A DNA stretch of 64,000 nucleotides, from NCBI RefSeq assembly GCF_003314975.1, contig NZ_QNRF01000011.1, forward strand, positions 1 through 64,000. Reading direction: 5' to 3'. The position numbers and the translations under genes are program-made. This document shows, piece after piece, positions 10,954-32,083 of this stretch (the first letter of the stretch is position 1; the number at the start of each line of letters is the position of its first letter). The notes beneath the pieces are model-generated. The model saw only the letters and a program-made list of their open reading frames with translations. It was not told where the DNA came from and ran no database searches. The DNA is from Marinomonas aquiplantarum. GTDB taxonomy: Bacteria > Pseudomonadota > Gammaproteobacteria > Pseudomonadales > Marinomonadaceae.

Positions 10954-10990
10954 CTAGGTCAACAAACCTGATTATAGAATTCTTACAAAA

Positions 10991-11020: not shown

Positions 11021-11035
11021 ATTTTTAGCAAATGA

Positions 11036-11293
11036 TTAAGCCGCTACGACAGAAACTGTACGACGCTTAAACTTACCTTTTACTTCAAATTTCACTTGGC
11101 CTTCTGCAACAGCAAACAAAGTGTGATCTTTACCAATTTTAACACCTTCACCAGCGTGGAACTGAGTACCACGTTGACGAACTAGAATGTTACCTGGAAT
11201 CACAACCTGACCACCAAAACGTTTGACACCTAATCGTTTCGACTCGGAATCGCGACCGTTACGAGTACTACCACCCGCCTTTTTGTGAGCCAT
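11036..11293 (-). CDS. rpmA: 50S ribosomal protein L27
   Basis: L27 is an 85-residue protein whose N-terminus reaches the peptidyl-transferase centre. The N-terminus [20 protein letters not shown] is diagnostic, and no N-terminal presequence of the Firmicute type is present. It lies 36 nt downstream of rplU and is followed by a strong terminator. Confidence 0.98.
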
Positions 11294-11329
11294 GACTTAC
11301 TCCTTAAATAAGTTAATTAACGCTAACGC

Positions 11330-11638
11330 TTAGTTAATACCAGTTACTTTCACTTCCGTGAACCACTGACGATGACCCATGCGCTTCATAGAGTGCTTAC
11401 GACGACGGAATTTCAAAATTTTCACTTTGTCTCCGCGACCGTGAGAAACTACTTCCGCAGTTACTTTAGCGCCTTCTACAACTGGAGCGCCAACTTTTAC
11501 GTCGTCGCCGTTACTCACAAGAAGAACGTCGTTGAATTCAACAACACCGCCTTCTTCAACCGCAAGCTTTTCAACTTTAAGGGTTTGGCCTTCTTGTACA
11601 CGGTATTGCTTACCGCCAGTTTTAATTACTGCAAACAT
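11330..11638 (-). CDS. rplU: 50S ribosomal protein L21
   Basis: L21, 102 residues, binds 23S rRNA with L20. It begins [14 protein letters not shown] and ends in the usual basic [16 protein letters not shown] segment. The ATG at 11638 was chosen because a GGAG site lies 6 nt upstream and the family starts here; a TTG at 11650 would add four residues. It is the first gene of rplU-rpmA, with a promoter candidate at 11776-11804. Confidence 0.98.
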
Positions 11639-11775
11639 GTTCTTCTCCAATAAGATCTACCCGGCTACTGAATTTGTATTTGACCTACTTCTAGTGGCAA
11701 TCCATCTTCGTGAAATAAACACGAAAACCAACAACCATATGATAGGGAGCAAAATGTGGGTAAATCGGACGCAGG

Positions 11776-11804
11776 ATTGTACAAAATCAACTCAATTAAT
11801 ACAA
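11776..11804 (-). promoter_or_regulatory. candidate rplU-rpmA promoter
   Basis: On the minus strand TTGTAT (11804-11799) and TACAAT (11781-11776) are separated by exactly 17 bp. The distance to the rplU ATG gives a leader of about 130 nt. Confidence 0.55.
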
Positions 11805-11843
11805 GGAAAAAGCAGAGTCTTTATACATTTTTCGTATTTTGGG

Positions 11844-11872
11844 TTGACCCTGACACAAGCCTTACCTAGCAT
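11844..11872 (+). promoter_or_regulatory. candidate ispB promoter
   Basis: TTGACC (11844-11849), a 17-bp spacer and TAGCAT (11867-11872) lie about 50 nt upstream of the ispB ATG. It is back to back with the rplU promoter in a 283-nt divergent spacer. Confidence 0.5.
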
Positions 11873-11921
11873 GAGGCACACTTGCTGATCAGCTTGGGAC
11901 TTTTATAGCTTCGGAAATTGC

Positions 11922-12902
11922 ATGCAACCTATACAAATACACGATGTTGTGGCCAATGAATTTGGTCAAGTGAACGATTATATCGTCTCACAACTTAGTA
12001 GTGACATCCCTCTCATCGAGCAAATCGGCTACTACATTATCAGTAACGGCGGCAAACGCTTACGACCTTTATTGGTTTTATTGGCCGCGAAAAGCTGCTC
12101 AGAGCTAGCAGACGATAAACTGAAAAACGCCATTAAAATGGCAACCATTATTGAATTCATTCACACCTCGACCTTGTTACACGACGATGTGGTCGATGAA
12201 TCCGATATGCGTCGCGGTAAAAAAACCGCTAATGAGGAATGGGGGAATGCACCCAGCGTATTGGTTGGCGACTTCCTATACTCTCGTGCCTTTCAGATTA
12301 TGGTCGACGTTGGCAACATGCCTTGCATGGAAATTTTAGCCAAGACCACAAACATCATCGCCGAAGGCGAAGTTCAGCAGCTCATTAATTGTGGCGATCC
12401 TGACACCACAGAAGCCAGCTACTTAAAAGTGATTCAGTACAAAACAGCCAAACTGTTTGAAGGGGCGGCATTATGTGGCGCCGTAGTGGCTGGCGCCAAT
12501 ACGGAACAACAAGAAGCCTTGCGTTTGTATGGCATGTACGTGGGCACCGCCTTCCAATTAATCGATGACGTCATGGATTACACCAGCACAGCAGAAGAAA
12601 TGGGCAAAAGCGTAGGTGACGATTTATCTGAAGGCAAACCGACTTTACCGCTGATCTATACCATGAAACACGGTACAGAGGATGCGAAAGAACGCGTTAG
12701 ACAAGCGATTTTAACAGGTGGCCTAGATCAACTAGAAGACATCATCAACGACGTTCGCCATTGCGGTGCGATTGATTACACGCAACAGCAAGCTCAACAA
12801 CAAGCAGACTTGGCCATCGAAGCCATTCAACCCTTACCCGAGTCTGAGTACAAAGACGCCCTAATCGCGCTTGCTCACGCCTCAGTAAAACGCCGTAATT
12901 AG
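11922..12902 (+). CDS. ispB: octaprenyl diphosphate synthase
   Basis: A trans-polyprenyl diphosphate synthase that makes the ubiquinone side chain from IPP and farnesyl diphosphate. Both aspartate-rich motifs are present: DDVVD at residues 88-92 (in LLHDDVVDESDMRRG) and DDVMD at 215-219. NGGKRLRPLL at 42-51 binds IPP. The 326-residue length and divergence from rplU match ispB of gammaproteobacteria; the exact chain length (C40 or C45) cannot be read from sequence. It is convergent with the hydrolase at 12931. Confidence 0.93.
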   Translation: MQPIQIHDVVANEFGQVNDYIVSQLSSDIPLIEQIGYYIISNGGKRLRPLLVLLAAKSCSELADDKLKNAIKMATIIEFIHTSTLLHDDVVDESDMRRGKKTANEEWGNAPSVLVGDFLYSRAFQIMVDVGNMPCMEILAKTTNIIAEGEVQQLINCGDPDTTEASYLKVIQYKTAKLFEGAALCGAVVAGANTEQQEALRLYGMYVGTAFQLIDDVMDYTSTAEEMGKSVGDDLSEGKPTLPLIYTMKHGTEDAKERVRQAILTGGLDQLEDIINDVRHCGAIDYTQQQAQQQADLAIEAIQPLPESEYKDALIALAHASVKRRN

Positions 12903-12910
12903 CTCTTAAT

Positions 12911-12951
12911 ACATCAGATTCAGTCTAAGATTAAGCGACTGAGTCTGATGT
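12911..12951. repeat. 15-bp inverted repeat between convergent genes
   Basis: ACATCAGATTCAGTC (12911-12925) and GACTGAGTCTGATGT (12937-12951) pair with a single mismatch (a G-U wobble) around an 11-nt loop. It spans the ispB 3' end and the last codons of the hydrolase. No T run follows, so it may stabilise transcript ends rather than terminate them. Confidence 0.6.
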
Positions 12952-13851
12952 CACCTGTCCATCAACCCGCAATAAATCCATGACAACCTGCGCGGCCAAT
13001 GACGAATTCTGCTGCATAAAGCAGTGTCCACCCTCCACTTCAATCAAATGTATATTGGCATTCAATTTGGCACACAGGCGATAAGCCTCTTTAAAATAAT
13101 CAAAGGTATCTTTGCCCAACACTATGTAGGTCGGCACCAAAATTTGCGCAATTTTTTTCCACAAACCTTTTGGATAGCTCGAAAAAATCGCCGCCTCCAT
13201 CCAAGTTGGGCACCTTAATTGATAATGACCTTTTTCATCCTGCAACAAAGAAGAGCCAATATAATCCTCTAAGCACTCAGCTTCCCAGCCTTTAAAGGTG
13301 CCGCGCTCATAAAAACTCTTATGAACTTGAGCATAACTCTCCCATTGTGTACGACGTCGTTTGGCCTGTTTCGCAAGCGGAATATGGCGCGTCAAACCTG
13401 CCAATTTCACGCCGCGCATCATCCAAATAAGACGTGGTGGAAACAGCGCCGGATCTAATAAAATCATGCGACTGAATATGGGCTCATCTAACTGGTTCAT
13501 CAAAGCCGTCATACAACCGCCAAAACTGTGACCCATACCAATCAATTCTGAACTCGGCTCCAACTCTCGACGCTGCAACAGAGATTGCGAAAAACGAGCG
13601 GCAGTCTCATTCCAACCAACAAAGCCTTTCGTGACAGAAGACCCGCCGTGACCAGCCGCATCCTGCAAAATTAAGTTGTAGCCTTCTAATTGCGACAAAA
13701 AACGCGCATAAGTCTGCACCGCAAACCCATTGCCATGTAAAAAATGAATCGTCGGCTGATTCCTATCTTCATATCGAGAGTAGCCCTGTAGATGACCATC
13801 AGACAATTCATGCTGCCAGGTTGATAAAGTTAACGTGTCATCTCGGTCCAT
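12931..13851 (-). CDS. alpha/beta hydrolase of unknown substrate
   Basis: A 306-residue alpha/beta-hydrolase-fold protein. The oxyanion segment FLHGNGFAVQTY is near the N-terminus. The nucleophile elbow GHSFGG carries the catalytic serine, and a late EGGHCFMQQ supplies the histidine. The acid is probably the Asp in VLGKDTFDYF. No signal peptide is seen, so it is probably cytoplasmic. The ATG at 13851 has a GAG site 6 nt upstream; a GTG at 13872 adds seven residues but has no visible site. Substrate cannot be inferred. Confidence 0.8.
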   Translation of the reverse strand: MDRDDTLTLSTWQHELSDGHLQGYSRYEDRNQPTIHFLHGNGFAVQTYARFLSQLEGYNLILQDAAGHGGSSVTKGFVGWNETAARFSQSLLQRRELEPSSELIGMGHSFGGCMTALMNQLDEPIFSRMILLDPALFPPRLIWMMRGVKLAGLTRHIPLAKQAKRRRTQWESYAQVHKSFYERGTFKGWEAECLEDYIGSSLLQDEKGHYQLRCPTWMEAAIFSSYPKGLWKKIAQILVPTYIVLGKDTFDYFKEAYRLCAKLNANIHLIEVEGGHCFMQQNSSLAAQVVMDLLRVDGQVTSDSVA

Positions 13852-14108
13852 ATAAAACTCAAATATCCGCACAAAGAAAAAGCAAATACTACCAGAAATA
13901 CCGCAGCGAAAAGATCTTCAACACCATTTACATCAAAAAACCCTTTACTGCTGGGTGTTTTTCGATCTGTTGACGGTTTTTTTTCCTCACAAACATTCAT
14001 ATTGCCGCGTCAAACCGATATAATCAGCTAGATTTTATACTGCAAACTGGACCACATAACCCACCGAGCTATTTCTAGTCTGCGGCTGGATGTGGATATA
14101 GGACTATA
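13852..14108 (+). promoter_or_regulatory. fabA upstream region with a TATAAT -10
   Basis: This 257-nt spacer lies between the divergent hydrolase and fabA. A perfect TATAAT lies at 14019-14024, giving a leader of about 80 nt before fabA; its -35 is weak, which would suit an activated or repressed promoter. In E. coli fabA is controlled by FadR and FabR. A CTGGACC half-site occurs at 14046-14052 but I cannot confirm an operator. Confidence 0.4.
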
Positions 14109-14624
14109 ATGACTACAGCTTCATCTTTTGAAAAAGACGAACTATTAAAATGCGGCCACGGTGAAATGTTTGGTGCAGGTAATGCCCAACTTCCTGTTGG
14201 CAACATGCTAATGATGGATCGCATCACTCACATATCTACTGAGGGCGGTGAACATGGCAAAGGCGAAATCATTGCCGAGCTAGATATCCACCCAGACCTT
14301 TGGTTTTTCGAATGCCACTTCCCTGGCGATCCGGTTATGCCTGGCTGCCTAGGCTTAGACGCCATGTGGCAACTTGTTGGCTTTTTCCTTGGCTGGAAAG
14401 GCAACAAAGGTCGTGGACGCGCACTTGGCTCAGGTGAAGTAAAATTCACTGGGCAAATTTTACCGACTGCGAAAAAAGTGACTTTCCACATCAACTTAAA
14501 ACGCGTTATTGAACGCAAGTTGGTAATGGGTATCGCAGACGGAAGCGTAAAAGTAGATGGCCGTGAAATATACACAGCAAAAGATTTGCGTGTTGGTCTA
14601 TTTACTTCAACAGAAGATTTCTAA
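14109..14624 (+). CDS. fabA: 3-hydroxydecanoyl-ACP dehydratase/isomerase
   Basis: FabA dehydrates 3-hydroxydecanoyl-ACP and isomerises trans-2 to cis-3-decenoyl-ACP, the branch point for anaerobic unsaturated fatty-acid synthesis. At 171 residues it is the same size as E. coli FabA. The catalytic pair is H70 ([11 protein letters not shown]) and D84 (LGLDAMWQ), at the same positions as in E. coli. An AGGA site lies 5 nt before the ATG. fabB follows 27 nt downstream, an arrangement typical of Pseudomonas and relatives rather than of E. coli, where the genes are unlinked. Confidence 0.97.
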
Positions 14625-14651
14625 AAGATTCAGAATGAAAGAGGCACATTT

Positions 14652-15866
14652 ATGCGTCGTGTAGTAGTAACAGGTCTAGGCATTGTCAGCTGCCTTGGCA
14701 ATGACAAAGACAGCGTTTTAAACTCGTTGCGCGAGGGCCAGTCTGGTATTCGCTTCGCTGAAGATTACAAAGAACACGGCTTTCGTAGCCATGTTTGTGG
14801 TCGCATCGATCTTGATGCAAACAGCATTGATCGTAAAGTTCGTCGCTTCATGGGCGACGCTGCAACTTACGCATACGTTTCTATGCAACAAGCCATCACA
14901 GATGCTGGCTTAACAGAAGACCAAGTGTCTAACATCCGTACTGGTCTCGTTGCCGGTTCAGGTGGTGCATCAGCACAAAACCTAGTAGACGCTGCAGACA
15001 CACTACGCGAAAAAGGCGTAAAACGTGTTGGTCCTTACCGTGTTACACAAACGATGGGCAGTACTGTATCCGCTTGTTTGGCAACACCTTTCAAAATCAA
15101 AGGCGTTAACTACTCCATCACATCGGCTTGTTCAACCAGTGCACACTGTATTGGTAACGCCATGGAATTGATCCAACTAGGCAAACAGGACATCGTTTTT
15201 GCCGGTGGTGGTGAAGAAGAAAGCTGGACACAAACTTGTATGTTTGATGCGATGGGCGCCTTGTCTTCTAAGTACAACGAAACACCAGAAAAAGCGTCTC
15301 GTGCTTACGATGCAAACCGTGATGGTTTTGTTATCGCAGGTGGCGGCGGTATGCTGGTTATCGAAGAACTAGAACACGCTAAAGCTCGTGGAGCAAAAAT
15401 CTACGCAGAATTAGTCGGTTACGGTGCAACATCTGATGGCTACGACATGGTAGCGCCATCTGGTGAAGGTGCAGTACGTTGTATGCAAATGGCGATGAGT
15501 ACAGTAGAAGAGAAAATCGACTACATCAACACTCACGGCACAAGTACACCTGCTGGTGACATGAAAGAACTGCAAGCTGTCAACGAAACATTCGGCGACG
15601 ACATTCCACTAATCAGTTCTACTAAGTCACTGTCTGGTCACTCACTAGGTGCGGCTGGCGTACACGAGGCGATTTACTGCCTGCTTATGATGGAAAACGA
15701 CTTCATCACAGCGTCAGCAAACGTAGAAGAGCTAGATGAAGCGGCAGGTAACATTCCTGTTGTGACAACTCGCAAAGACAATGCGAATCTAAACACTATC
15801 ATGTCAAACAGCTTTGGCTTCGGCGGCACCAACGCCAGCTTGGTATTCAAAAAATACCAAGGCTAA
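14652..15866 (+). CDS. fabB: 3-oxoacyl-ACP synthase I
   Basis: FabB elongates cis-3-decenoyl-ACP so that unsaturated chains are made. The 404-residue ketosynthase has the Cys-His-His triad: C160 in [12 protein letters not shown]295 in [11 protein letters not shown] and H330 in SGHSLGAAG. It is co-transcribed with fabA and followed by a strong terminator. Together the two genes commit the cell to the FabA/FabB route of membrane unsaturation. Confidence 0.97.
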
Positions 15867-15882
15867 TCAGCCAAACGCTCAA

Positions 15883-15911
15883 TAAAAAAGCCGCTAATGC
15901 GGCTTTTTTAT
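15883..15911. terminator. terminator between fabB and the convergent acyltransferase
   Basis: AGCCGC-TAAT-GCGGCT (15889-15904) is flanked by A and T runs. It can end fabAB (+) and the plsC transcript (-). Confidence 0.88.
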
Positions 15912-15938
15912 TGTCTACACGTTACTTTAACGATCAAA

Positions 15939-16697
15939 TCAATCGTTGAAAATATACTCATTTCCTTTCGGTAGTTTTGCCATTTCGGCACGCATCCAAG
16001 CATCCATTTCATCATGTAGTTCTGACGTTTTCTTACCATCAGACTCAATCACCGGCCCCACCACTACTCGAATAGCACCTGGAAATTTGCGCCAGCGTTT
16101 ACCCGGCCAAGTGTAGCCTGCGTTGTGCACAACGGGCAGAATCGGCGCTTTAGCTGAGGTCGCCAACATAGCTGCCCCTTTATTAAAAGCTTGCTCTTGG
16201 TTAGGCGCAATGCGCGTACCTTCGGGGAAAATCAAAACAGAACGACCATCTTCAATTCGCTCTTTTCCCTGACTGATGATTTGCTTTAAAGCATTGGTTC
16301 GTTGCGAACGATCAATGGCGATCGGCTGCACCATACGCAACCCCCAACCAAAGAAAGGCACAGACAGAAGCTCTTTTTTTAGCACCGTAGACACAGGAGC
16401 CATCAACACCTGTAACAAGTAGGTTTCCCATTCACTTTGGTGGTTTGCCACCAGCACAAACGCGCGCCGTCGATCAATGTTTTCCAAACCAACAAACTCA
16501 ATTTTTACACCACAAAACACTCGAAAGACGAATAATAAACCTTTGTTATGAAGGTTAAGTACCGGCTGACGAAGTCCTTTCGGTAACAATACCGTTGCCA
16601 AAGGCGCTAGAGCGCCAAACAACAAGGTCGACAACATGTAATAAACAAAGAATACGGCTGATCCAATCCACGATCGAAGTGACTCCCAAAGACTCAT
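15939..16697 (-). CDS. plsC: 1-acyl-sn-glycerol-3-phosphate acyltransferase (PlsC-like)
   Basis: A 252-residue membrane-associated acyltransferase that probably converts lysophosphatidic acid to phosphatidic acid. One or two N-terminal hydrophobic segments lie at residues 12-38. Motif I is NHQSEWET (H86 to E91), the HX4E variant found in many bacterial AGPATs instead of HX4D. Motif III is FPEGTR and motif IV includes PILPVVHNAG. It follows another acyltransferase after 19 nt, so the two are probably one operon. The symbol is assigned by similarity; other PlsC paralogues may exist. Confidence 0.8.
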   Translation of the reverse strand: MSLWESLRSWIGSAVFFVYYMLSTLLFGALAPLATVLLPKGLRQPVLNLHNKGLLFVFRVFCGVKIEFVGLENIDRRRAFVLVANHQSEWETYLLQVLMAPVSTVLKKELLSVPFFGWGLRMVQPIAIDRSQRTNALKQIISQGKERIEDGRSVLIFPEGTRIAPNQEQAFNKGAAMLATSAKAPILPVVHNAGYTWPGKRWRKFPGAIRVVVGPVIESDGKKTSELHDEMDAWMRAEMAKLPKGNEYIFND

Positions 16698-16716
16698 TAA
16701 AACCTTACTCCTCGTT

Positions 16717-17823
16717 TTATTTTGCTAAATATTTTTGCTGCTGCTTCAAAGGGTTGGCATACATTGCCAACACAGTATCACGCAAATCTTGCGGACACTC
16801 TTCTAGGTAACGTGAGAACGCGGCATCTGGCGATGCTTGTCCAAGCTGCATAGCTAACGCCGCTTCGTTCGTAGATTGAATAGCATAGTTCGTGATGATC
16901 TGACGATCTACTTCCTCAACAAACTCTTCTGGTGTTTCAAAGCCATCTTTGATCACATCACCAAAGGTCACTACCACTTTGCCTTTTTGCCCAACAATGC
17001 CATTTTTAATGCTATCAATGTCTTCAAATTCGGCTTTTTCGTAGCTGCCAGTCGAAGACTTTTGATGCAATTCATTGGCTTTATCAAAGGCACAAGGATC
17101 ATATTCATAAGAGATGGAAACTGGCACAACTTTTAAGTTTGCCATCGCTTCAGCAAAAGACTTTTTCTCTTTCTTCTGACTCATGAAGAACATTTTAATG
17201 ATGGCCGGATCCGTTTGGTCCAAGCCGTCTTTTGCACGGCCTTCTTTTTGCGCAATCCAAATATTACACTGATCTTTGGTCAAAGATTCAGTGATGTAAG
17301 CCGACAACTGACCAAACGCCGCCATCATTTCGCGAATGCCGTTAGCAGAACGCTTAACAATGAAACTCTTATTCAGACGCATCAAGTCGGACACAAAAGG
17401 ACGACGCAATAAGTTATCACCAATGGCGATACGAACCGTATCCAATCCCGCCAAATACAAGCCATAATTGACAAATGCAGGGTCCATGGCAATGTCTCTG
17501 TGGTTTGACAGAAACAAATACCCTACCCCTTTTTCCAATTTCTCAATGCCTCGATACTCCACGTTAGTGGTCGTGGTTTTGATCATGCGTGCCATATAAT
17601 CGGCTACGAGCATTTGGAATTCATGCACATTGGTGATCTTGGCAACCTGACGCTTTAGCGCCAACTTCACCACGAATGCCAAGGGCCCGTGCATCCATTT
17701 CGGCCATTTAGCAAAACGAAAACCAATAATCGTATTAATAAAGTCTGGTGTGGTGACCAGATTTTGCAGCACCTCGGCGACTTCATCGTCGTTGTAGGGG
17801 CGTATATCGTGAAACTGATCCAT
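16717..17823 (-). CDS. PlsC-like glycerolipid acyltransferase, atypical motif I
   Basis: A 368-residue acyltransferase-fold protein of uncertain substrate. Motif I reads SNHRDIAMDPAF (H108 to D114), so the histidine and the second aspartate are separated by five residues rather than four. Downstream motifs are also divergent (IAQKEGRAKDG in place of FPEGTR, then VVPVSISYEYDPCA). No clear membrane anchor is visible, though residues 45-58 are hydrophobic. It is 19 nt upstream of plsC and 44 nt after the M16C peptidase. Its role is probably lysophospholipid or glycerol-phosphate acylation, but this is inference. Confidence 0.7.
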   Translation of the reverse strand: MDQFHDIRPYNDDEVAEVLQNLVTTPDFINTIIGFRFAKWPKWMHGPLAFVVKLALKRQVAKITNVHEFQMLVADYMARMIKTTTTNVEYRGIEKLEKGVGYLFLSNHRDIAMDPAFVNYGLYLAGLDTVRIAIGDNLLRRPFVSDLMRLNKSFIVKRSANGIREMMAAFGQLSAYITESLTKDQCNIWIAQKEGRAKDGLDQTDPAIIKMFFMSQKKEKKSFAEAMANLKVVPVSISYEYDPCAFDKANELHQKSSTGSYEKAEFEDIDSIKNGIVGQKGKVVVTFGDVIKDGFETPEEFVEEVDRQIITNYAIQSTNEAALAMQLGQASPDAAFSRYLEECPQDLRDTVLAMYANPLKQQQKYLAK

Positions 17824-17867
17824 TTATTTTTCCGTTAGTAAAAACTAAGCTGTTTTTCGTATTATAT

Positions 17868-20789
17868 TTACAGAGATTGAATATCAAAACCAAGCGCTTC
17901 CAGCTCGTCACACTTAGTGACAGAGGTAACCACGGCAATGTTTTCATTCTCTTTCGTTAGGTATGTCTTCGCGACCTGTTGCAATTGCTCAATCGTCACG
18001 GACAAAATTTTCGCTCGAAACGCTTCTCGATAAGCAAGACTACGACCATGTAACTGAACATAGAAATCGCTTTGCGCTTCACCAGCAGGTGAGCTTGGTT
18101 TATCCATAGAACCAATCACACCTAAAATGGCTTCCTCTAATGCTTCATCACTGTGAGTGTCATTCAATAACCACTCAATAGACGCATCAAAGTCAGCCAA
18201 TGTTTCTGTCAATCTTGGGTCTCGGTAGGAGTAGAATCGGAATGACCCGGTACCGCCGTCAAAGGTTGCACCACCGCCATAAGCACCACCTTGCTCTCGA
18301 ATCGCACGATGTAAAAATCCGTTTCTCAGGAAACCACCCAACACAGTCAATGCCGCCACATCAGGATGATCGCCAAACGCAGTTCGGTAGGCTTTACTAC
18401 AGAAGCTAACTTGCGTTGAGGTCAACCAAGCCAATTTCAATTGACCTTGCTGAGCAGGCAAAGTGAAGTGCGTATCCTCATCTCCAGTTGGCAAGTCCGC
18501 GAACACCTCATTGACTTGCGTCATGATGCTCGCTTCATGTTGTGCTTCAGCCACTAACAACATCTGTTTCTTAGCGCGCAACAACTTACTGTGTATACGC
18601 TTAAAGACAGCCAATACCTGTTGTACTGCCGCCTTATCTTCTTTCATCGCATCGTCTAAAGCGATCGCCGAACGAATACCTGACATGCCACCCCATGCTT
18701 CTTGCTGTGCAGCCAAACCAGAAATGGCACTGGCCGCAGCGGCCATTGCCAAGGAATGACCTTGTCCAGTGACAGACTGTTCACGGCGTGCACGGCGTTG
18801 CGCCACTAACTCTTTAACACGGCTTTCTTCATCGAAACGCACATGCAACATGGTGTCACGCAACAACTCGCTCATGGCTTTGACATTCGGAACCAAAGCT
18901 TTAGAGGAAAGAATGAAATAGCCTTTTACCTCTTGTCGATCATTGATCGTCGCTCTAATCGAGTTCGACGCACCAAGACCACCACAAACTTGTGCCTGCT
19001 TTTCTTGTATCGCAAGATAATCTTGATGACCAACTCCAAGCTCGGTCATCACCGAAGAGAACAACGGCAAATAACTGGTTTCTTCCTCGTCCAGCTCGGG
19101 CAGCTCAACAACCAATTGCTGATATACCAGACCATTTGTCCCTTGAGGATAAAAGGTAATAGGCAAACGCCCCGCTACCTGCTCTCGATCGTATTCAGGT
19201 AAACGTGCTGGCACATCTTCTAAGCCGACTTTCGGCAAGATACTCATATCATCGACTTGCGCCTGACGCTCTTTCAACGCTTCACTGCGTTCAATGATTT
19301 GCTGCTTTTGTTCGTCGCTTAACGACGCCTTGATGCGACTCAAACGGTCTTTTTCCGCTTGATTACGACGTGTTTCCAATGCATCGTCTGGACTTAATGT
19401 CAGCGTTACTCGGTGAGCATTCGACAACAGCAAGCTATTAATAAGATTTGGAATGTAATTCGGCGCTTGTACTTTCTCACGCATCTCAGCGATCACTGGA
19501 TCCAAGTCCAATTGCGTAATCACATCACCAGAATGCACCGCCGTAGACAGCCCTGCGAGGATCAGTTGCAAGCCGTAAGGGTAACTGCCACCGCCAATTT
19601 CACGTTGGCTTAGCTCCAACTGATGCAACATGGCGTCAACCATATCCTGTTGTACGCCTTGTTCCGCAATCTCTTCTAAACTGGAGAGAATTAACGCTTC
19701 GACCTTACTAGAGTCTTCTCGCTTCACCCCTTCCAGACCACACATAAAGCTCATTTCTTTATTGCTGTCTTCCAGCCCACACAGAGGCGATGGCGCGCGT
19801 CCTAGATCAGAATTCTCCAATACTCGACGCAATGGCGAAGCACTGTTATCCAACAACACACTGGACAATAATTGCGCTTCAAACTGCTGCGTTAAATCCG
19901 TACTCTCACCCAGCAACCAGCCGACAACCACATGGCTACCGTCTTCTTTTACTTCGTCAGCGGCATAACCTTCTTCTACGCGAACTGGCGAGAAATAACG
20001 TTTTGCATTCGGCACACTGACTTGCGTATCAAGACGCTCAAAACGGCTCAATACTTTTTTCTCAAATTCTGCTTGCAAGGTCTCAGCTGGAATATCACCA
20101 AAGGTCATGAAAACCGCATTAGAAGGGTGATAATGAGTACGATAGAAAGCCAACAAATCGTCGTAAGAAAGATCAGGAATATCCGTCGGTTCGCCACCAG
20201 AGTTGAAATGGTAAGTGTTACTTGGGAACAAATACTTTGTCAGAGTTTGCCACAACACAGAGGTGGTTGAACTCATTGCCCCTTTCATTTCATTAAAGAC
20301 CACACCTTTAAACGTCAGATCAGACTCGGCGTTATCAGGTTCAGCAAATTCTAAACGGTGACCTTCCTGAGAGAAGTCCAACTCATCCAGACGAGAAAAG
20401 AACACCGCATCTAAATACACGTCCAATAAGTTATGAAAATCTTTCTTGTTCTTACTGGCAAAGGGATACGCAGTCCAATCAGAAGAGGTAAAAGCATTCA
20501 TGAAAGTATTCAATGAACGACGAATCATCATAAAGAAAGGATCGCGCACGGGGAAACGCTCAGAACCACACAATACTGTGTGTTCCAAAATATGCGCCAC
20601 ACCACAAGAATCAGTTGGTACAGTTTTTAGTCCAACTAAGAAAACGTTTTCATCATTTTCCGATGCGATGTGAAAATGCTTTGCGCCGGTGACGGTATGC
20701 TCGAACTCCTGAACACTGGCGTTCAGAGCGTCAATAAACTCACTGCGAATAAATTTAAACGCAGGATGGTGCGCGATGCGATCTGTCAT
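17868..20789 (-). CDS. insulinase-family (M16C) zinc metallopeptidase
   Basis: A 973-residue M16C peptidase, related to mitochondrial/plastid presequence protease. The inverted zinc motif is HILEH at residues 66-70, and the distal glutamate is in FNEMKGAMSS. Four M16 domains are present, and the C-terminal pair carries REQGGAYGGGATF, the substrate-binding R-Y region. There is no signal peptide, so it is a cytoplasmic peptidase that probably degrades short peptides inside its closed chamber. It has a candidate extended -10 promoter at 20876-20881 and precedes the acyltransferases. Confidence 0.9.
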   Translation of the reverse strand: MTDRIAHHPAFKFIRSEFIDALNASVQEFEHTVTGAKHFHIASENDENVFLVGLKTVPTDSCGVAHILEHTVLCGSERFPVRDPFFMMIRRSLNTFMNAFTSSDWTAYPFASKNKKDFHNLLDVYLDAVFFSRLDELDFSQEGHRLEFAEPDNAESDLTFKGVVFNEMKGAMSSTTSVLWQTLTKYLFPSNTYHFNSGGEPTDIPDLSYDDLLAFYRTHYHPSNAVFMTFGDIPAETLQAEFEKKVLSRFERLDTQVSVPNAKRYFSPVRVEEGYAADEVKEDGSHVVVGWLLGESTDLTQQFEAQLLSSVLLDNSASPLRRVLENSDLGRAPSPLCGLEDSNKEMSFMCGLEGVKREDSSKVEALILSSLEEIAEQGVQQDMVDAMLHQLELSQREIGGGSYPYGLQLILAGLSTAVHSGDVITQLDLDPVIAEMREKVQAPNYIPNLINSLLLSNAHRVTLTLSPDDALETRRNQAEKDRLSRIKASLSDEQKQQIIERSEALKERQAQVDDMSILPKVGLEDVPARLPEYDREQVAGRLPITFYPQGTNGLVYQQLVVELPELDEEETSYLPLFSSVMTELGVGHQDYLAIQEKQAQVCGGLGASNSIRATINDRQEVKGYFILSSKALVPNVKAMSELLRDTMLHVRFDEESRVKELVAQRRARREQSVTGQGHSLAMAAAASAISGLAAQQEAWGGMSGIRSAIALDDAMKEDKAAVQQVLAVFKRIHSKLLRAKKQMLLVAEAQHEASIMTQVNEVFADLPTGDEDTHFTLPAQQGQLKLAWLTSTQVSFCSKAYRTAFGDHPDVAALTVLGGFLRNGFLHRAIREQGGAYGGGATFDGGTGSFRFYSYRDPRLTETLADFDASIEWLLNDTHSDEALEEAILGVIGSMDKPSSPAGEAQSDFYVQLHGRSLAYREAFRAKILSVTIEQLQQVAKTYLTKENENIAVVTSVTKCDELEALGFDIQSL

Positions 20790-21519: not shown

Positions 21520-21569
21520 AACGACTCACCTCAAAACTCACCATAATGCCTTATCAGACAGCCGAATAA

Positions 21570-21682
21570 ACAAAAGGCTCCCATAGGAGCCAACACATTC
21601 CGTTTATCCCTGCTTTCACCTTAGTGAAAATCACTGTTTCACTCGCCCTTGTCCGACAAGTTACAAGACACACTTTCATATG
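21570..21682 (-). ncRNA. candidate ~112-nt small RNA or attenuated smrA leader
   Basis: On the minus strand an extended -10 (TGT-TATAAT, -10 at 21694-21689) predicts a start near 21682. The predicted RNA has a CTTGT-CGG-ACAAG hairpin and then AGTGAAA-CAGTGAT-TTTCACT. It ends in GGCTCC-TATG-GGAGCC followed by TTTTG (21591-21572). The terminator is about 50 nt upstream of the smrA ATG. It may be a free small RNA or a leader whose terminator controls smrA. I recognise no known RNA family. A 41-codon frame starting at 21679 is not convincing as a protein. Confidence 0.5.
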
Positions 21683-21695
21683 GGAATCATTATAA

Positions 21696-21911
21696 CAGGA
21701 TATACATTCGACAACTAATATTGATAATCACGACAAACACCCGTTCATTCGCACTACTATACGCGATGACTACAGTCGCTCTAACCCGTTTGACAATCAG
21801 GCTCGACATTATGGTTTGCGCCAAGGGGAACTCACGTTGGGGGAATCATCCCGACATGACCCACTTCGGCGGCTGGCGCAGCTACTTAGCGAGTTTGAGC
21901 TAACGTCTTAA
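21696..21911 (+). pseudogene. 71-codon reading frame without a usual start codon
   Basis: After an in-frame TAA at 21693-21695 this frame is open to a TAA at 21909-21911. The product is protein-like, ending DPLRRLAQLLSEFELTS. There is no in-frame ATG or GTG, and TTG only occurs past the middle, so it is either the 3' remnant of a gene or starts at a rare codon. It is followed by a terminator at 21931-21966. A second frame (21649-21903) overlaps it and is less protein-like. I do not recognise a family. Confidence 0.25.
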
Positions 21912-21930
21912 ACAAGGGTTAATAAAAACC

Positions 21931-21966
21931 AAAAAGCCTTCGTAGCAATGATACGAAGGCTTTTAA
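21931..21966. terminator. bidirectional terminator left of the defence island
   Basis: AAGCCTTCGTA (21934-21944) pairs perfectly with TACGAAGGCTT (21952-21962) around a 7-nt loop. The minus strand has five T after the stem, suiting the end of the SIR2-HerA-HTH transcript, and the plus strand has four. Confidence 0.85.
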
Positions 21967-22004
21967 TGATCACTCTGTTCTATCCGCTGAATGGTTCAAA
22001 CAGA

Positions 22005-22208
22005 TTATACAAGCACATCCAGACCTTTATCAGCGACCAAATTCAACAGTATTAATGACGGGCCATTTGGCTTCTTAACGCCTTGCTCCCACTTTTGCAC
22101 TGTGGACTTGCTAGTATTCAAATAAGCAGCAAAGACGCCCTGACTCGCTCGATTTTTAATACGGATACTTTTAATTTGCTCGGCTGTGAACGCTTTTACT
22201 GGAGGCAA
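22005..22208 (-). CDS. short HTH (XRE/HigA-NadS-like) protein, possibly truncated
   Basis: A 67-residue protein with one helix-turn-helix domain (IRIKNRASQGVFAAYLNTSK then STVQKWEQG). It ends like antitoxins of the HigA/NadS type (KKPNGPSLILLNLVADKG). Such antitoxins are usually about 95-110 residues with an N-terminal arm, so about 30 residues appear to be missing. The only in-frame start is TTG, with a weak upstream site, and an in-frame TAA lies two codons before it. It lies 58 nt downstream of the HerA gene on the same strand. It may be a repressor of the module or a remnant of an earlier toxin-antitoxin pair. Confidence 0.6.
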   Translation of the reverse strand: MPPVKAFTAEQIKSIRIKNRASQGVFAAYLNTSKSTVQKWEQGVKKPNGPSLILLNLVADKGLDVLV

Positions 22209-22266
22209 GCTTTAGCCCACTTTATAACAGTCGAATTTTTCAAAGCAATTCTTAACTTCCAATTGT

Positions 22267-24210
22267 TTATAATACATAAGTTTTAAACCACTCCTCATGA
22301 ATCTTACAATTCTCACTGTTAGGTTCCGGAAACGCCTGTTTTATTCTGACATGTAGGGGCATTGATACACAGTTACCAAATATTAAAGCCTCTCCCGGAA
22401 CAGATTGCTTAATTTTATTTGCGAAGTCATCTGAAAAATACGGAAGGATAGCATAGACGTACTTCATATCTATTTCATTCTGTATTCGGTGGATTATGAA
22501 GTTGGAGCATTGTGATAGAACCGTTTCAGATAATTCTGAGGGTCGTTGAGATGATATCAGCAAATATAATGCGTATTTCCTGCCTTCACGGGCAATCTGC
22601 TCAAAAATATTCTCACGCAGAAGATATTTCGAATCTTTTTTAATGTAACGGTGAGCCTCATCTAGAACAAGATGTATAGGTTTCTCACGTCTCGCGTTAC
22701 CTTTTAGCTTTTTCCTTGAAGAAAAGTTTATTCTTGAAGTTACCGAGGTTAATGTCTCCAAAGCATCTTTGGAAAGCTCGCTGGTATCGATAATCACCAT
22801 ATTGGTTTGTTCTGGGACATCCAGATTTGATTGCCACATCCAATCAAGATATTGGTCTATGTTGGTTGTGTTTTCTGGTCGCTTGCGCATGAAATCACAG
22901 TCTGGATTATCTAGAAAGAAATCCAATCTGGTCATCATTGTCGACGTATACTCTCGAACTCGTCGGTTTCCTCTGGCATCTTCCTCTAGCAATGTTAGGT
23001 TGGCTGCCTGTTTGAGGAATCGATAATCGAAATACTGTTCTGAACTAGCACGCATAGAAATAACTTCTTGCACAGATCCGTAGTCAACCTTTTCACGAAC
23101 CTGCTCAGCAGCTTGCTTTAACTTATCGTTGTTATTTCCGTAAGCTACTGAACAATTGCTATATAGCTCTTGTAAATCTTCATACATACCTTCCTCTTCA
23201 CAAGCTTTTTTTAGATTCTCATCGAATTCAATTAGCTCAGAAATTCCGTATATTACGTTTTTCGCAGCAGTAACAATAGCAGTGTCAGTATCACCTTGAG
23301 CCAGTAGCATATGTACTAAACTACATACTTTAAAACGCAGATAATTAATAAACTTCTGTCTCTCAACACCCTCGCGAGTTGAGATCATATAAAACTTATA
23401 GCTTTCCTGAAGCACCTTATCCCAAAATGGACGTTGGGTCGCATCAGTCGCCATTAGGAATGCACTCCACTCATCAATATTCATGAGGAAGTGGGGAAGA
23501 TAAAACCGTTCAAATCCTTCTTCTGCTGCATCAATGTTGGGCTTTAGCTGCCTTACTTTTAAGTTTGGACCTATTTCATGCTCAGAAAAGGCATTTTTGT
23601 ATTCGCCATTCACATCGAAAATCAATATCCGTGAGCCAATAGCAGAGTTATCTTTCTTCTTATGGATGTCTTGGATAATGTGGGCAATTGTATTTGATTT
23701 ACCGCTTCCAGAGTTTCCGAGGACTGCTGAGTGGATGTTGAAAAATGAGTTTATCGAAATATCAATTGGATAGTTAATTAAGTTTTTACTCTCGCCGAGA
23801 TAAAAACTTTGGTGAACAGACTTTTCCAGTGACTTATCTTTACTTGTATGAAGAATAAGCTCCATATCTTCAAATGTAACAACCGCTACCTCACTGTAAA
23901 TTCCGGGGAAAATTCCAACCCCAAGATTAAATTTTTCAGCTCTGGTGATAGTGCCAACAGGTTTCAGCAACAGTTCTCTATTACTATCAATGTCATAAGC
24001 GGCAGAATCTAATTTCATATCGCTGTCGAAGATTGACACAACTTCACAGATTAACTGTTCACCCACTGAGTTTGTGGTTTTCAGATAACTACCAATGTTA
24101 CCAAAGTAATAGACGACACCAGCAAGATTTACGGAATTCCCCCTGATGTCTGATGAAATTTTAACCCGGAACTGATTAAAGTTAACTGAAGTGATCTTCC
24201 CAATTTTCAT
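22267..24210 (-). CDS. HerA-like DUF87 ATPase of a SIR2-HerA defence-type module
   Basis: A 647-residue FtsK/HerA-superfamily ATPase. Residues 1-85 look like a HAS-barrel. The Walker A is GNSGSGKS (165-172), followed by FDVNGEY (198-204), a HerA hallmark. The Walker B is LVLDEAHRY (514-522), and SSQRPSELSE (553-562) is a sensor/arginine-finger region. HerA proteins form hexamers; in characterised SIR2-HerA systems the hexamer binds SIR2 and both NADase and DNA-directed activities stop phage. The start overlaps the SIR2 gene by 4 nt. AT-rich codon use contrasts with neighbouring core genes. All key residues appear intact. Confidence 0.85.
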   Translation of the reverse strand: MKIGKITSVNFNQFRVKISSDIRGNSVNLAGVVYYFGNIGSYLKTTNSVGEQLICEVVSIFDSDMKLDSAAYDIDSNRELLLKPVGTITRAEKFNLGVGIFPGIYSEVAVVTFEDMELILHTSKDKSLEKSVHQSFYLGESKNLINYPIDISINSFFNIHSAVLGNSGSGKSNTIAHIIQDIHKKKDNSAIGSRILIFDVNGEYKNAFSEHEIGPNLKVRQLKPNIDAAEEGFERFYLPHFLMNIDEWSAFLMATDATQRPFWDKVLQESYKFYMISTREGVERQKFINYLRFKVCSLVHMLLAQGDTDTAIVTAAKNVIYGISELIEFDENLKKACEEEGMYEDLQELYSNCSVAYGNNNDKLKQAAEQVREKVDYGSVQEVISMRASSEQYFDYRFLKQAANLTLLEEDARGNRRVREYTSTMMTRLDFFLDNPDCDFMRKRPENTTNIDQYLDWMWQSNLDVPEQTNMVIIDTSELSKDALETLTSVTSRINFSSRKKLKGNARREKPIHLVLDEAHRYIKKDSKYLLRENIFEQIAREGRKYALYLLISSQRPSELSETVLSQCSNFIIHRIQNEIDMKYVYAILPYFSDDFANKIKQSVPGEALIFGNCVSMPLHVRIKQAFPEPNSENCKIHEEWFKTYVL

Positions 24211-25475
24211 TTTTTATCCCCGACCGACTTCATGGATTTGATAAACTCTTCAAGTATTTCAGTATCCTTACTACGGTCCAGATCGGGAATGAAATTATTC
24301 ACGATATAATTGAAATAATGGATTTTTTCCTTTTGTGGAGCCGCTCCGCCATCAACAGGGACTTCTATCTCTCCTGATATCTGATAGATTCGCCGATCGG
24401 TTAGTCTGGTGAGGTTTTCTGTTGGGTGATAGTTGCCAAAAATTATCACGCTAAGGCTGGAATTAGACGCCAGCGCTGAATAGATGGCATTGTTAATATG
24501 TTCATCGCTAAAGCTGTATCCGATGACGATTAACACTCCATGTTGCAGCAATAGCTTGTTCTGAAACTCTCTGATTAAATCGGCATAGGGTGAGCCTAGG
24601 CTCTTGTTTTGTTTCAATGGTGTTGGATAAATTAGTACGTTCTTGTCGCTTGAAGGTTCGTTCGGTGTGACATCGACTTCTTTAATATTGAAAAATGAAT
24701 TGTCATCCGACTCTATCCAGCTAATAGAGCCGTGAAGTTTGAAAAGATAAACCATGCTTTCCAACGGTTCATACTTCTCAACACTAGGATCAACCTTTCT
24801 GGAAAAGGTGTAAGAGAATCTTGCTGGGTTAAATGTGCGAGAGAGGCCGCTACTAAATCCATTATTGTAGTTGATGTTGAGAAAACCCAGCGCAGTCTCA
24901 CTCAGTAAATCATTGTTGGTAGTAAATACGTTGACTCTGGCTAAATCTTTGTTTCTAAGAGCCAATTTCTGGTAGAGCTTCTTATATAAGCCAAGAGAAA
25001 GCTCGGCCTGCGCGGAAGTACAATCAATATTTATACATGAATAAATCTCGGACTCAATAAGGTTGATAAGGAAATCATTGAGACTATCTGTTTGACCTAC
25101 ACCTTTCAGGTATTCACGCTTTGAGTACAGTGTACCTAATAAGCTTTCAAGGTTGTTTGGAGCATTGTCTTTCGCAGATTTGAATTGTTTTTTTAATTCA
25201 TCATGCTTGTCGGGATCAGAAGCTAACTGCTCCAGAGTTTGTTGAGCTTCCACCCGTTCAGTCACTTTTTTAATGAGTGGTGCCATTGCTGGTATGGCAT
25301 CAGAACTTGCGCCAGCCCCCAGCAAAAAGTGAAGATTTTTGATGTTGGTTAGATCGGAAAGTTTGCTTCTGATTTTCTCAATACCATCTTCGACACTATC
25401 ATTTTCAGCAAACAAACTCTCCTGGCCTTGTTTAAATGTAAGGTTGTCCTTTGCAAATACCTTTTTATCATTCAT
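24207..25475 (-). CDS. SIR2-family NADase-like protein of a SIR2-HerA module
   Basis: A 422-residue protein with a SIR2-type NAD-binding fold. GAGAS (residues 53-57) binds NAD. TTNND (185-189) corresponds to the usual TTNYD, with Tyr replaced by Asn at 188. LHGS contains the catalytic H248, and GYSFSDEHIN (319-328) closes the fold. In defence proteins such domains hydrolyse NAD+ to halt phage growth; protein deacetylation is unlikely. An AAGGA site lies 9 nt before the ATG. The gene is first in the module, overlaps herA by 4 nt and follows a weak promoter candidate at 25570-25597. Confidence 0.85.
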   Translation of the reverse strand: MNDKKVFAKDNLTFKQGQESLFAENDSVEDGIEKIRSKLSDLTNIKNLHFLLGAGASSDAIPAMAPLIKKVTERVEAQQTLEQLASDPDKHDELKKQFKSAKDNAPNNLESLLGTLYSKREYLKGVGQTDSLNDFLINLIESEIYSCINIDCTSAQAELSLGLYKKLYQKLALRNKDLARVNVFTTNNDLLSETALGFLNINYNNGFSSGLSRTFNPARFSYTFSRKVDPSVEKYEPLESMVYLFKLHGSISWIESDDNSFFNIKEVDVTPNEPSSDKNVLIYPTPLKQNKSLGSPYADLIREFQNKLLLQHGVLIVIGYSFSDEHINNAIYSALASNSSLSVIIFGNYHPTENLTRLTDRRIYQISGEIEVPVDGGAAPQKEKIHYFNYIVNNFIPDLDRSKDTEILEEFIKSMKSVGDKK

Positions 25476-25569
25476 TTAAGAAGTTCCTTTAAATACAAAT
25501 CAGCGATGAATAAAACGCAAATAAAACGGGTCAGAGTTAAATTAACTATGTTTCCAACATTCATTCTCA

Positions 25570-25597
25570 TTTATAGCAGACATACCTTAATTTTCCA
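25570..25597 (-). promoter_or_regulatory. weak promoter candidate for the SIR2-HerA module
   Basis: The minus strand shows TGGAAA (25597-25592), 16 bp, then TATAAA (25575-25570) preceded by TGC, an extended -10. It lies just downstream of the ssb terminator, giving a leader of about 85 nt before SIR2. Confidence 0.35.
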
Positions 25598-25605
25598 CCC
25601 ACCAA

Positions 25606-25632
25606 ACAAAAAGCCCCGCAGGTGCGAGGCTT
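25606..25632 (-). terminator. terminator after ssb
   Basis: On the minus strand AAGCCTCGC-ACCT-GCGGGGCTT is followed by TTTTG. It isolates the SIR2-HerA module from ssb transcription. Confidence 0.85.
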
Positions 25633-25664
25633 TCTGGTCTATCTGACTTAACAACAAGTATTTC

Positions 25665-30880: not shown

Positions 30881-32083
30881 TCACCAATCCAATGCGAACT
30901 CTAATTGTTCATCAATCCTGTTACCTAATGCATCAGCGGTTGAATAAACTTCGTAGTCTGGCTTGATGCCTTTGCGGATAAAATCATGAGGTTCATTTAT
31001 AAAATCGTGCTTTGCTGATATCTGACACCAGTAGTTCCCACCTAAATCTAAATTTACTGGCATTCCTGAGCTCCCTGCTGACGTTTCGCCAATCAAAACG
31101 CAATTGTCTATTTGCTTAGCATATAAAAGAAAATCCTCGGCAGCTGAGATAGTTTCACAGTCCATTAATACGCATATTTTGTTTACTGATATAGGTCTAT
31201 CAGGAAAGACCGTTTCTGATTTTCCAACATACCAGTCAGAAGCATTGGCTGCCTGTTGACGAGGATCTAAATTATGAAAATAAGCCACTTGAAAGGCATT
31301 AAAGCTTAAGCTTCTCCAAGAGGCGCCCATAAGTTGTTTATGAGTTAAAATAGCTAATAACTTAGTAGCAAAGACACTATTCCCACCCGTATTCCCACGA
31401 ACATCAATGATTAACTTAGATATGCTAGCCAGTTTTCTTAGCTCCTGAATGACCAACTCAATGTCAGATTCATTTGCAAAGGAAGGAATATAAAGATAGC
31501 TAGTATCACGACTATAACAGTTCTTTATAGAATCAAAGCTTGGTTGACTTTGGCTCAATGGAAAAGTCTTCAAGTCAAATACACTCTCCAAAACAATCTC
31601 TTTCCTTAAACCATCTGGTGTGTTTATTACAATCCGTGGATTAGCAGAATATCGATTTGAAAGAAGATATTTTAATACTCTCGAAATGCCGTGGTTACGG
31701 GTAGAGAACGAGACTTGAGACAAATTATTCTGCATGACTTCAATAATAGGTTGTTCGTTCATTAAAAGTATCTCAGAACCAATTGGTATAGAATCTCGCA
31801 ACTGAACTAGATTATTCAATACAAGGCATTTCGAGTCTATGAGCTTGGTCTTCAGGCCGACACTCAGCAATGGGATCACATCTTTAGGAAACACATCTGT
31901 ATGCGCATCATTTAGACAATGTAATAACTTACGAAAAGCAGCATAAGTTGAATAATTTGAACGCTCTGATATCAATTCGAAAAATTGACGATCAAACTCG
32001 TCTCTGTGTTGGGTTGATGTGAAATTGGAGAAAAATTTATGCACATAACGCCAAAAAGTAAGCATGCTTTCTAAATCACTCAT
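30881..32083 (-). CDS. cytoplasmic S41-family (tail-specific protease-like) peptidase
   Basis: A 400-residue S41-like protein. A helical N-terminal domain ends in LNDAHTDVF (H61). A PDZ-like stretch follows (IPIGSEILLMNEQ), and then the core: LIIDVRGNTGGNS (about 224-236), the nucleophile S313 in TISAAEDF, and IGETSAGSSGM. The lysine of Prc/CtpA enzymes (GxxTxGK) is replaced by Ser, so it is closer to the S41B (tricorn/IRBP) type, where His and Ser are used. No signal peptide or membrane segment is seen, unlike most S41 proteases. The gene is isolated, AT-rich, and flanked by TTATCCAC motifs, which suggests acquisition. Confidence 0.75.
   Translation of the reverse strand: MSDLESMLTFWRYVHKFFSNFTSTQHRDEFDRQFFELISERSNYSTYAAFRKLLHCLNDAHTDVFPKDVIPLLSVGLKTKLIDSKCLVLNNLVQLRDSIPIGSEILLMNEQPIIEVMQNNLSQVSFSTRNHGISRVLKYLLSNRYSANPRIVINTPDGLRKEIVLESVFDLKTFPLSQSQPSFDSIKNCYSRDTSYLYIPSFANESDIELVIQELRKLASISKLIIDVRGNTGGNSVFATKLLAILTHKQLMGASWRSLSFNAFQVAYFHNLDPRQQAANASDWYVGKSETVFPDRPISVNKICVLMDCETISAAEDFLLYAKQIDNCVLIGETSAGSSGMPVNLDLGGNYWCQISAKHDFINEPHDFIRKGIKPDYEVYSTADALGNRIDEQLEFALDW

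Follow-up and report, generated by a model that had tools for sequence, protein, structure and literature searches.

The locus considered here carries two genes on the minus strand of a 64,000-nt stretch of Marinomonas aquiplantarum DNA (the window). The upstream gene (24207..25475, 422 aa) encodes a SIR2-family NADase-like protein with pocket residues Asn187, Asp189 and His248 and a variant residue, Asn188, in the motif TTNND. The second gene (22267..24210, 647 aa) encodes a HerA/DUF87 ATPase with P-loop Lys171, Walker B residues Asp517-Glu518, and Arg544, the putative arginine finger. The genes share four nucleotides, ATGA (24207-24210), and thus form one operon-like pair; according to the list of open reading frames of the 64-kb window, both frames are full length. 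A preliminary description of this DNA had reported the overlap, the SIR2 motifs GAGAS, TTNND, LHGS and GYSFSDEH, intact Walker motifs in HerA, and an AT-rich composition, and all of these are present. In particular, the HerA P-loop reads GNSGSGKS, and the G+C content is 0.38-0.40 across the three kilobases 22001-25000, compared with 0.42-0.48 in six kilobases on either side.

Conserved residues, profiles and folds

The residues expected of a SIR2-HerA system are strongly conserved among relatives. Asn187, Asp189 and His248, including the catalytic Asn and His of an NADase, are kept in all 40 rows of the alignment of related SIR2 proteins, and Lys171, Glu518 and Arg544, representing Walker A, Walker B and the arginine finger, in 40 of 40 HerA rows, while at position 517 there are 21 rows with Asp and 19 with Glu.

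The search against SIR2 and DUF87 defence families that had been proposed earlier yielded near full-length matches to the PADLOC subtype models, PDLC04084 for SIR2 (E-value 5.6e-152, 504.8 bits, residues 10-417) and PDLC04102 for HerA (6.1e-223, 739.8 bits, residues 1-644). No difference from these models is evident, the comparison being with the profiles and not with their seed sequences, and hence the subtype is already catalogued. The NCBIfam antiphage models score far under their cut-offs (113 bits against 500 for SIR2, 202 against 850 for HerA), so among SIR2-HerA subtypes this one stands far from those that have been characterised. The profile E-values, together with dN/dS of about 0.1 (see below), put the pair far beyond chance.

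Consistent with this, the SIR2 sequence matches SIR2 chains of solved SIR2-HerA systems (8yhx, 1e-35; 8j4u, 5.8e-16; 8w9l, 3.3e-15). In a fold search with its AlphaFold2 model, of moderate confidence (pLDDT 77), all hits at E ≤ 0.001, 39 PDB chains, come from the SIR2 component of SIR2-HerA systems, in some cases solved in the absence of HerA, though the overlay on solved chains is loose (rmsd 5.1-10.0 Å, TM 0.39-0.70). The HerA model, also of moderate confidence (pLDDT 81), has as its top fold match 8yhx_A (1.9e-35), a SIR2-HerA entry, with DUF4297-HerA chains scoring nearly as high. Thus, judging by predicted models, both folds are closest to solved SIR2-HerA subunits; SPARSA, DSR2 and ThsA match the SIR2 model much more weakly (1.4e-3 or worse). 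These three SIR2 effectors are not known to have a HerA partner; DSR2 and ThsA are reported to have the same catalytic Asn/His pocket.

The E. coli SIR2-HerA/Nezha system (8j4u, 8su9, 8sub, 8uae) and that of classical Vibrio cholerae A103 resemble the pair in the two-gene SIR2 and HerA composition, catalytic Asn and His, P-loop ATPase and fold, and the essential Asn168 and His227 of V. cholerae correspond by motif to Asn187 and His248. Still, identity to these systems is low (about 22% for SIR2 in fold alignments, 18-20% for HerA), they have TTNYD instead of TTNND, and their HerA has 610 aa, not 647. 8yhx, the top fold match of both proteins and the top sequence match of SIR2, also has TTNYD, with 21-25% SIR2 identity in fold alignments.

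A cassette inserted between ssb and smr

The pair lies between ssb (PF00436) and smr (PF01713); beyond ssb there are MFS and UvrA genes and, further on, L17 genes. In the closest relative (G036), the ssb-smr interval lacks the pair, and the points where the alignment to this interval stops on each side delimit an inserted cassette at 22209..25603 (minus strand). The 50-nt stretches around the two junctions have no word as long as 6 nt in common. In nine other loci compared, DNA similarity ends at the two gene ends. Of the accessory island proposed in the preliminary description, the variable interval stands, but its content is a single cassette of about 3.4 kb. A large island was rejected, as ssb to smr spans 4145 nt. 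In the window, the pair is alone between these two genes, a point against the defence reading.

Among ssb-smr intervals, nine of 38 had no ssb end in the fetched stretch (two of these are contig ends) and were excluded from counts. Across the genus, the cargo of 12 intervals, with translations read by eye and only the G036 toxin and antitoxin scanned with profiles, looks like regulators, glyoxalase-like, cold-shock and other genes. This suggests a slot for accessory genes in general and not a defence island.

The insertion cut an antitoxin gene that is intact in G036. The HTH gene at 22005..22208 (minus strand, 67 codons), described earlier as one of the features that make the pair a variant, is the 3' two-thirds of this antitoxin (HTH_3) gene, with TTG as its only start; in G036/L086, the intact antitoxin of 102 aa stands beside a RelE toxin (PF06296, 1.5e-43). 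The remnant has no tblastn match in the 47 related SIR2-HerA loci searched, although the sequence of some stops shortly past herA, and it was discarded as a third component.

The terminators reported on both sides of the pair, near 21931 and 25606, correspond to stem-loops in the sequence. On one side there is an intrinsic-terminator-like stem-loop at 21932..21964 (minus strand), found by the scan and shared with G036, hence older than the insertion. On the left flank of the insertion, the probable ssb terminator (25604..25630, minus strand) consists of a stem-loop at 25630-25613 followed by a T-rich stretch down to 25604; it was seen in the sequence and in G036, though the scan did not list it. 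G036 has both without having the pair, so they are assigned to ssb and to the former toxin-antitoxin genes and not to SIR2-HerA. Between herA and the HTH remnant, the scan found no terminator-like site on the genes' strand. Terminator-like matches number seven versus 3.8 (sd 1.6) and promoter-like ones ten versus 9.9 expected from shuffled sequences, and no promoter stands out in the scan of the locus.

Relatives and the residue at position 188

Of 46 related loci, 45 have a HerA-like gene, which in L046 lies about 1.7 kb away, and the two genes are coinherited: distance matrices of SIR2 and HerA correlate with r of 0.93 within the 21-row branch that includes the pair, with none of 2000 permutations as high. 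The genes are under purifying selection, with dN/dS of 0.08-0.17 in comparisons with Alteromonas portus (L008) and Erwinia sp. JUb26 (L003), these values being averages over other hosts, and 0.059 for SIR2 versus Idiomarina L004, at dS of 2.1; for several pairs involving L004 and the congener G028 (L124), saturation or errors left no estimate. SIR2 proteins of L008, L003 and two Idiomarina loci (L004, L005) are 81-92% identical to that of the window and have the same 4-nt overlap and TTNND, but the DNA similarity stops at the two genes; an MFS-ssb pair resembling the window's occurs in just one of them, L005, at a distance of about 6 kb.

The distribution is patchy. A close SIR2 homologue occurs in two of 48 genus genomes, the window's own included, and in one of 369 class genomes, which is the window's own. 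The cassette was not found in any E. coli genome at the megablast level, plasmid relatives are below 60% identity in all 479 records, and phage records gave three distant matches. Elsewhere, the pair lies between hsdM-hsdS and hsdR (A. portus), between hsdM and hsdR (G028), or beside an Abi_2 gene, with a phage-type integrase some genes away (Idiomarina L005). Around 20 of the loci there are 138 neighbour ORFs, of which the scan took in 125; the others were eleven of 90-133 aa and two longer ones (217 and 1745 aa). Among 286 PADLOC and 88 Pfam families, the top 25 are named. The defence and mobile genes beside some relatives, although counted with no background control, agree with the PADLOC profiles and solved-structure matches in upholding the earlier assignment to a SIR2-HerA defence module.

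The pocket tyrosine of TTNYD is replaced by Asn188 in the window's SIR2. The change noted in the preliminary description is therefore real, but it is a character of a branch and no local oddity: TTNND occurs in 20 of 21 rows on one side of a fully supported tree branch, and TTNYD in 21 of 21 on the other. As Asn is found in all but one of the 21 rows of a SIR2-HerA branch, the tyrosine was not taken as defining for such systems. The tree has 42 rows, three identical proteins among them; it leaves out the own-genome L001 and L002 and six of 46 loci that are fragments, truncated or far relatives, with Tyr in L025, L031, L043 and L046, Asn in L033, and TLNHD in L048. The branch-wide presence of TTNND and the invariance of the catalytic residues speak against a private or plainly inactivating mutation. 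Moreover, L014, inside the TTNND branch, has Tyr here while keeping the 17 other residues that are specific to the branch; within it, Tyr and Asn thus look interchangeable.

According to PMC11263360, Y134A at the matching position of DSR2 lowers NADase activity; hence, the NADase strength of the window's SIR2 is not to be assumed. The swap sits at a pocket residue, and changed catalysis in the TTNND branch is possible; Asn188 is the one remaining feature of the pair that may be functionally distinctive. It is rather doubtful that the TTNND branch forms a SIR2-HerA class with a function of its own, in which Asn retunes the enzyme (slower or tighter-gated cleavage of NAD+, other products or another nucleotide) and in which the switch occurred more than once. 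The recurrence is based on L014 and on L153, a viral-contig SIR2 that is 27% identical and also has TTNND, its contig ending at the SIR2 gene. Among 46 viral-contig sequences, residue 188 is Tyr in 41, Asn in one and unread in four, a count that compares mainly these two residues, since one of the two search patterns admits only N or Y there. The strings TTNND and TTNYD were not found in the text of the literature searched, which says little, as such motifs mostly stand in figures.

Function of the pair and alternative explanations

The pair is very probably an anti-phage operon of the SIR2-HerA (Nezha) type, stand-alone and gained by horizontal transfer. It would act by the mechanism of its relatives, from which the oligomeric state, NAD+ loss, phage protection and trigger are carried over. 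SIR2 and a HerA hexamer would most likely form a large assembly (in the E. coli relative, one of 12 SIR2 and 6 HerA subunits). Upon phage infection, this complex would hydrolyse NAD+ via Asn187 and His248, and the infected cell would stop supporting phage growth; HerA would be required for the complex to assemble and become active, and it might also act on DNA. In V. cholerae, according to PMC11559045, N168A or H227A in SIR2 abolishes immunity, and deletion of herA raises plaquing.

Defence could also proceed by a non-NADase route, if the Asn188 site had lost efficient NAD+ hydrolysis and the complex either worked mainly through a nuclease or DNA-translocating activity or used another nucleotide. 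That the branch has given up the pocket tyrosine, a residue important in DSR2, fits this, as do the helicase and nuclease activities also reported for the E. coli system (PMC11559045). With Asn187, Asp189 and His248 invariant and Tyr and Asn apparently exchangeable in L014, this is improbable. Moreover, NAD+ is cleaved by canonical sirtuins too, in which this position is hydrophobic. Even less credible is a decaying or silent passenger, a recent arrival with no function in its host: the cut antitoxin gene and the patchy distribution agree with it, but both frames are full length, catalytic and Walker residues are kept, and dN/dS is about 0.1 in the measured pairs, averaged over other hosts.

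The two remaining alternatives have hardly any probability. A three-gene system, with the downstream HTH protein regulating or restraining SIR2-HerA, would accord with the position of the HTH gene, 58 nt after herA on the same strand, and with its weak PADLOC HTH matches (RmrA, 1.5e-6; HTH_VI, 5.9e-6), but not with its origin as a piece of a RelE-associated antitoxin gene or its lack of a match in the related loci. A housekeeping repair HerA of the archaeal HerA-NurA type beside an unrelated SIR2 gene is suggested by the DUF87 domain, a sub-threshold HerA_C match and sequence matches to archaeal HerA 4d2i (6.2e-27) and HerA-NurA 9x1l (3.3e-18). Yet two NCBIfam repair-HerA models give only 126.9 and 87.7 bits (cut-offs 800 and 970), against 739.8 for the defence HerA profile, the overlapping partner is a coinherited SIR2 gene and not NurA, and close homologues of this SIR2 are rare in the genus and class, unlike what a housekeeping gene would show.

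As a SIR2-HerA anti-phage operon, the pair is a further, sharply delimited member of its defence family, one that moves as a bare two-gene cassette and has overwritten a toxin-antitoxin module at a variable chromosomal site next to ssb. The replacement of Tyr by Asn across its branch, at a residue needed for full activity in DSR2, in turn offers a natural experiment on the control of NAD+ cleavage by SIR2 effectors.

Composition and family of the gene pair

The SIR2 gene occupies positions 25475-24207 of the minus strand (an ORF of 422 aa), and the HerA gene follows on the same strand at 24210-22267 (647 aa), the two ORFs sharing four bases, ATGA. In the translated SIR2 protein, TTNND begins at residue 185, which places the catalytic Asn at 187, the unusual residue at Asn188 and the His of LHGS at 248; the P-loop of HerA reads GNSGSGKS. 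The G+C content is 0.38-0.40 in kilobases 22001-25000, compared with 0.42-0.48 in the six kilobases on each side. The positions of both ORFs, the 4-nt overlap, the motifs and the AT-richness claimed in the preliminary description are all reproduced here.

In Pfam, the proteins match SIR2_2 (1e-8) and DUF87 (6.6e-19). The proposed check against SIR2 and DUF87 defence families is answered by the subtype-level PADLOC profiles, which cover both proteins almost at full length (PDLC04084, 5.6e-152, for SIR2, and PDLC04102, 6.1e-223, for HerA). Matches to the NCBIfam antiphage SIR2 and HerA models lie under the cut-offs of these models, and therefore the pair is not of the best-characterised subtype. 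The PDB sequence search matched SIR2 to 8yhx, 8j4u and 8w9l, and HerA to HerA chains from several systems, the molecule names not always being system-specific.

The AlphaFold2 models, which are of moderate confidence (pLDDT 77 for SIR2 and 81 for HerA), agree with the profile and PDB sequence results. At E<=0.001 the fold search with the SIR2 model yielded 39 PDB chains, all of them SIR2 subunits from SIR2-HerA systems (8yhx, 8sub, 8suw, 8su9, 8uae, 8j4u, 8sxx, 8w9l, 8wld, 8woc; the titles of 8sxx and 8w9l name only SIR2), whereas matches to SPARSA, DSR2 and ThsA begin at 1.4e-3; the overlays on solved chains are loose (rmsd 5.1-10.0 A). The best match of the HerA model is 8yhx_A (1.9e-35), with HerA chains of SIR2-HerA and DUF4297-HerA complexes close behind, and thus the HerA fold alone cannot separate these systems. 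The pair is genuine and intact; it belongs to a known defence family and to an already catalogued subtype, the member itself being new.

Relatives and their surroundings

Scanning one genome per species, we found 46 related loci, 45 of them with a HerA-like gene. The nearest SIR2 relatives are from Alteromonas portus (92%), Erwinia sp. (84%), a congener, G028 (83%), and Idiomarina (81%). Among the 48 genomes of the genus, a close homologue is present in two, the window's own and G028, at different places, and four more have distant SIR2 matches only (25-38%); among 369 genomes of the class, the window's own is the only one with a match at E<=1e-60. The genome also encodes a second SIR2_2 protein (340-351 aa, TTNYD; G000:C4:258806-259240), and HerA was not found in the 3.4-kb stretch around its gene.

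Distances between SIR2 proteins are correlated with those between HerA proteins (r 0.97 for 42 rows, 0.93 for the 21-row branch described below), none of the 2000 permutations reaching such values. In DNA comparisons of the window with nine loci, the similarity at the pair extends no further than the ends of the two genes.

Some relatives sit amid defence or mobile genes. Among 125 neighbouring ORFs of 20 loci, counted with no background control, the profiles matched most often are phage integrase, with 5 members, and type I methyltransferase, with 4. In Alteromonas portus, hsdM-hsdS lie on one side of the pair and hsdR on the other; in G028 it is flanked by hsdM (plus a short ORF with no Pfam match) and hsdR, with DUF4357 and RhuM genes past herA. 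The DUF4357 gene there (295 aa) overlaps the herA end by 1 nt, and the RhuM-family gene is next, both within the stretch from hsdM to hsdR (L124 12723-14630).

The interval between ssb and smr

The pair lies between ssb and smr (window 21520-25664, 4145 nt), where cargo differs across the genus and the length of the interval varies between about 100 nt and several kb. Of 38 fetched intervals 29 were measurable: 12 are shorter than 250 nt, 5 are of 250-1000 nt and 12 of at least 1000 nt, with a maximum of 7906 nt.

The closest genome, G036, has a 99% identical Smr and no SIR2 match. Its interval aligns to window positions 29000-25604 and again from 22208; in between it carries other genes, the last being a RelE toxin (PF06296, 1.5e-43) and a 102-aa HTH antitoxin. 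The alignment ends at the first codons of the HTH ORF of the window (22005-22208, 67 codons, TTG start), which is the 3' part of this very antitoxin. This ORF is matched in one of the 38 other stretches of the genus, that of G036 (9 of the 38 do not cover both interval ends), and in none of the 47 related SIR2-HerA loci, a number of them ending shortly past herA. It is therefore a relic of former cargo, and the adjoining HTH gene, previously regarded as a variant feature of the system, turns out to be a truncated antitoxin. The RelE toxin gene is gone from the window; in G036 the toxin-antitoxin pair is intact (L086 1180-1852, minus strand).

No recombinase-like ORF was seen in the ORF list of the window interval, and no repeat was found at the insertion junctions; we infer entry by homologous recombination in the flanks. 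Directly before the toxin gene of G036, part of ssb occurs a second time, over 124 nt and with 84.7% identity (reverse complement of L086, 7112-7234, corresponding to window 26154-26031), a possible trace of cargo-swapping recombination beside ssb. Elsewhere in the window, an AT-rich Peptidase_S41 gene (2.6e-18) at 30884-32083, between the UvrA and L17 genes, is possibly another acquired gene; G+C is 0.374 over 31001-32000, and the PADLOC search gave no match for it.

An ssb gene (58% over 115 residues) is near the pair in one of the 47 related loci, Idiomarina L005, and is preceded by an MFS gene, as in the window. There (7940-18509), ssb is followed by an adjoining phage-type integrase (PF00589, 1.1e-12), three genes with no Pfam match, and the SIR2-HerA pair with adjoining Abi_2, so that the pair is downstream of ssb in another family too, in this case with an integrase. 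This position, one case in 47, may be coincidental; it also suggests that the place after ssb is receptive to islands and may be a shared landing place, and the window cassette could have arrived on an island.

Probable action and residue 188

Most likely, phage infection would activate the SIR2-HerA assembly encoded in the window, which would then hydrolyse NAD+, and phage production would stop. In V. cholerae, immunity disappears when SIR2 carries N168A or H227A, and herA deletion increases plaquing (PMC11559045); the stoichiometry is described as 12 SIR2 and 6 HerA (PMC11559045; PDB title 8uae). The table of a 2025 review (PMC12198126) enters Sir2-HerA as 'Unclear' in the column listing activation of other systems.

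The unrooted tree, built from 42 SIR2 sequences of which 40 are different, has a branch with 100/100 support that separates 21 rows, 20 with TTNND and L014 with TTNYD, from 21 rows that all have TTNYD. Hence the Tyr-to-Asn change at residue 188 pointed out in the preliminary description is real, but it is not private to this locus. L014 retains all 17 other branch-specific residues, and therefore the swap at residue 188 is reversed or different in an otherwise typical member. TTNYD is found in all eleven other SIR2 proteins considered: four plasmid relatives, six proteins from the genus and one further protein of the window's genome. Of 46 SIR2 matches in viral contigs, found by a pattern biased towards N or Y, 41 have TTNYD, one has TTNND and 4 were not read; the TTNND protein (L153 4989-6251, outside the tree set) is just 27% identical to the query, which suggests an independent origin of its Asn.

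In the 40-row alignment, Asn187, Asp189, His248, Gly53, Gly55 and Ser57 are present in all rows, and position 188 is evenly divided (Asn 20, Tyr 20). The dN/dS values are 0.08-0.17 against the Alteromonas portus and Erwinia loci, other pairs being mostly saturated or giving no value. Invariant catalytic residues and purifying selection speak against a dead SIR2 enzyme.

Canonical sirtuins have a hydrophobic residue at the position matching 188 (TQNID). In DSR2 the matching Tyr134 is one of the residues of the catalytic pocket, and its replacement in Y134A clearly reduces NADase activity (PMC11263360); passages of two other DSR2 papers name Asn133 and His171 as catalytic and do not mention Tyr134 (PMC11087589, PMC11290490). 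Judging by DSR2 Tyr134, position 188 is not idle, and the Asn188 branch may differ in its behaviour.
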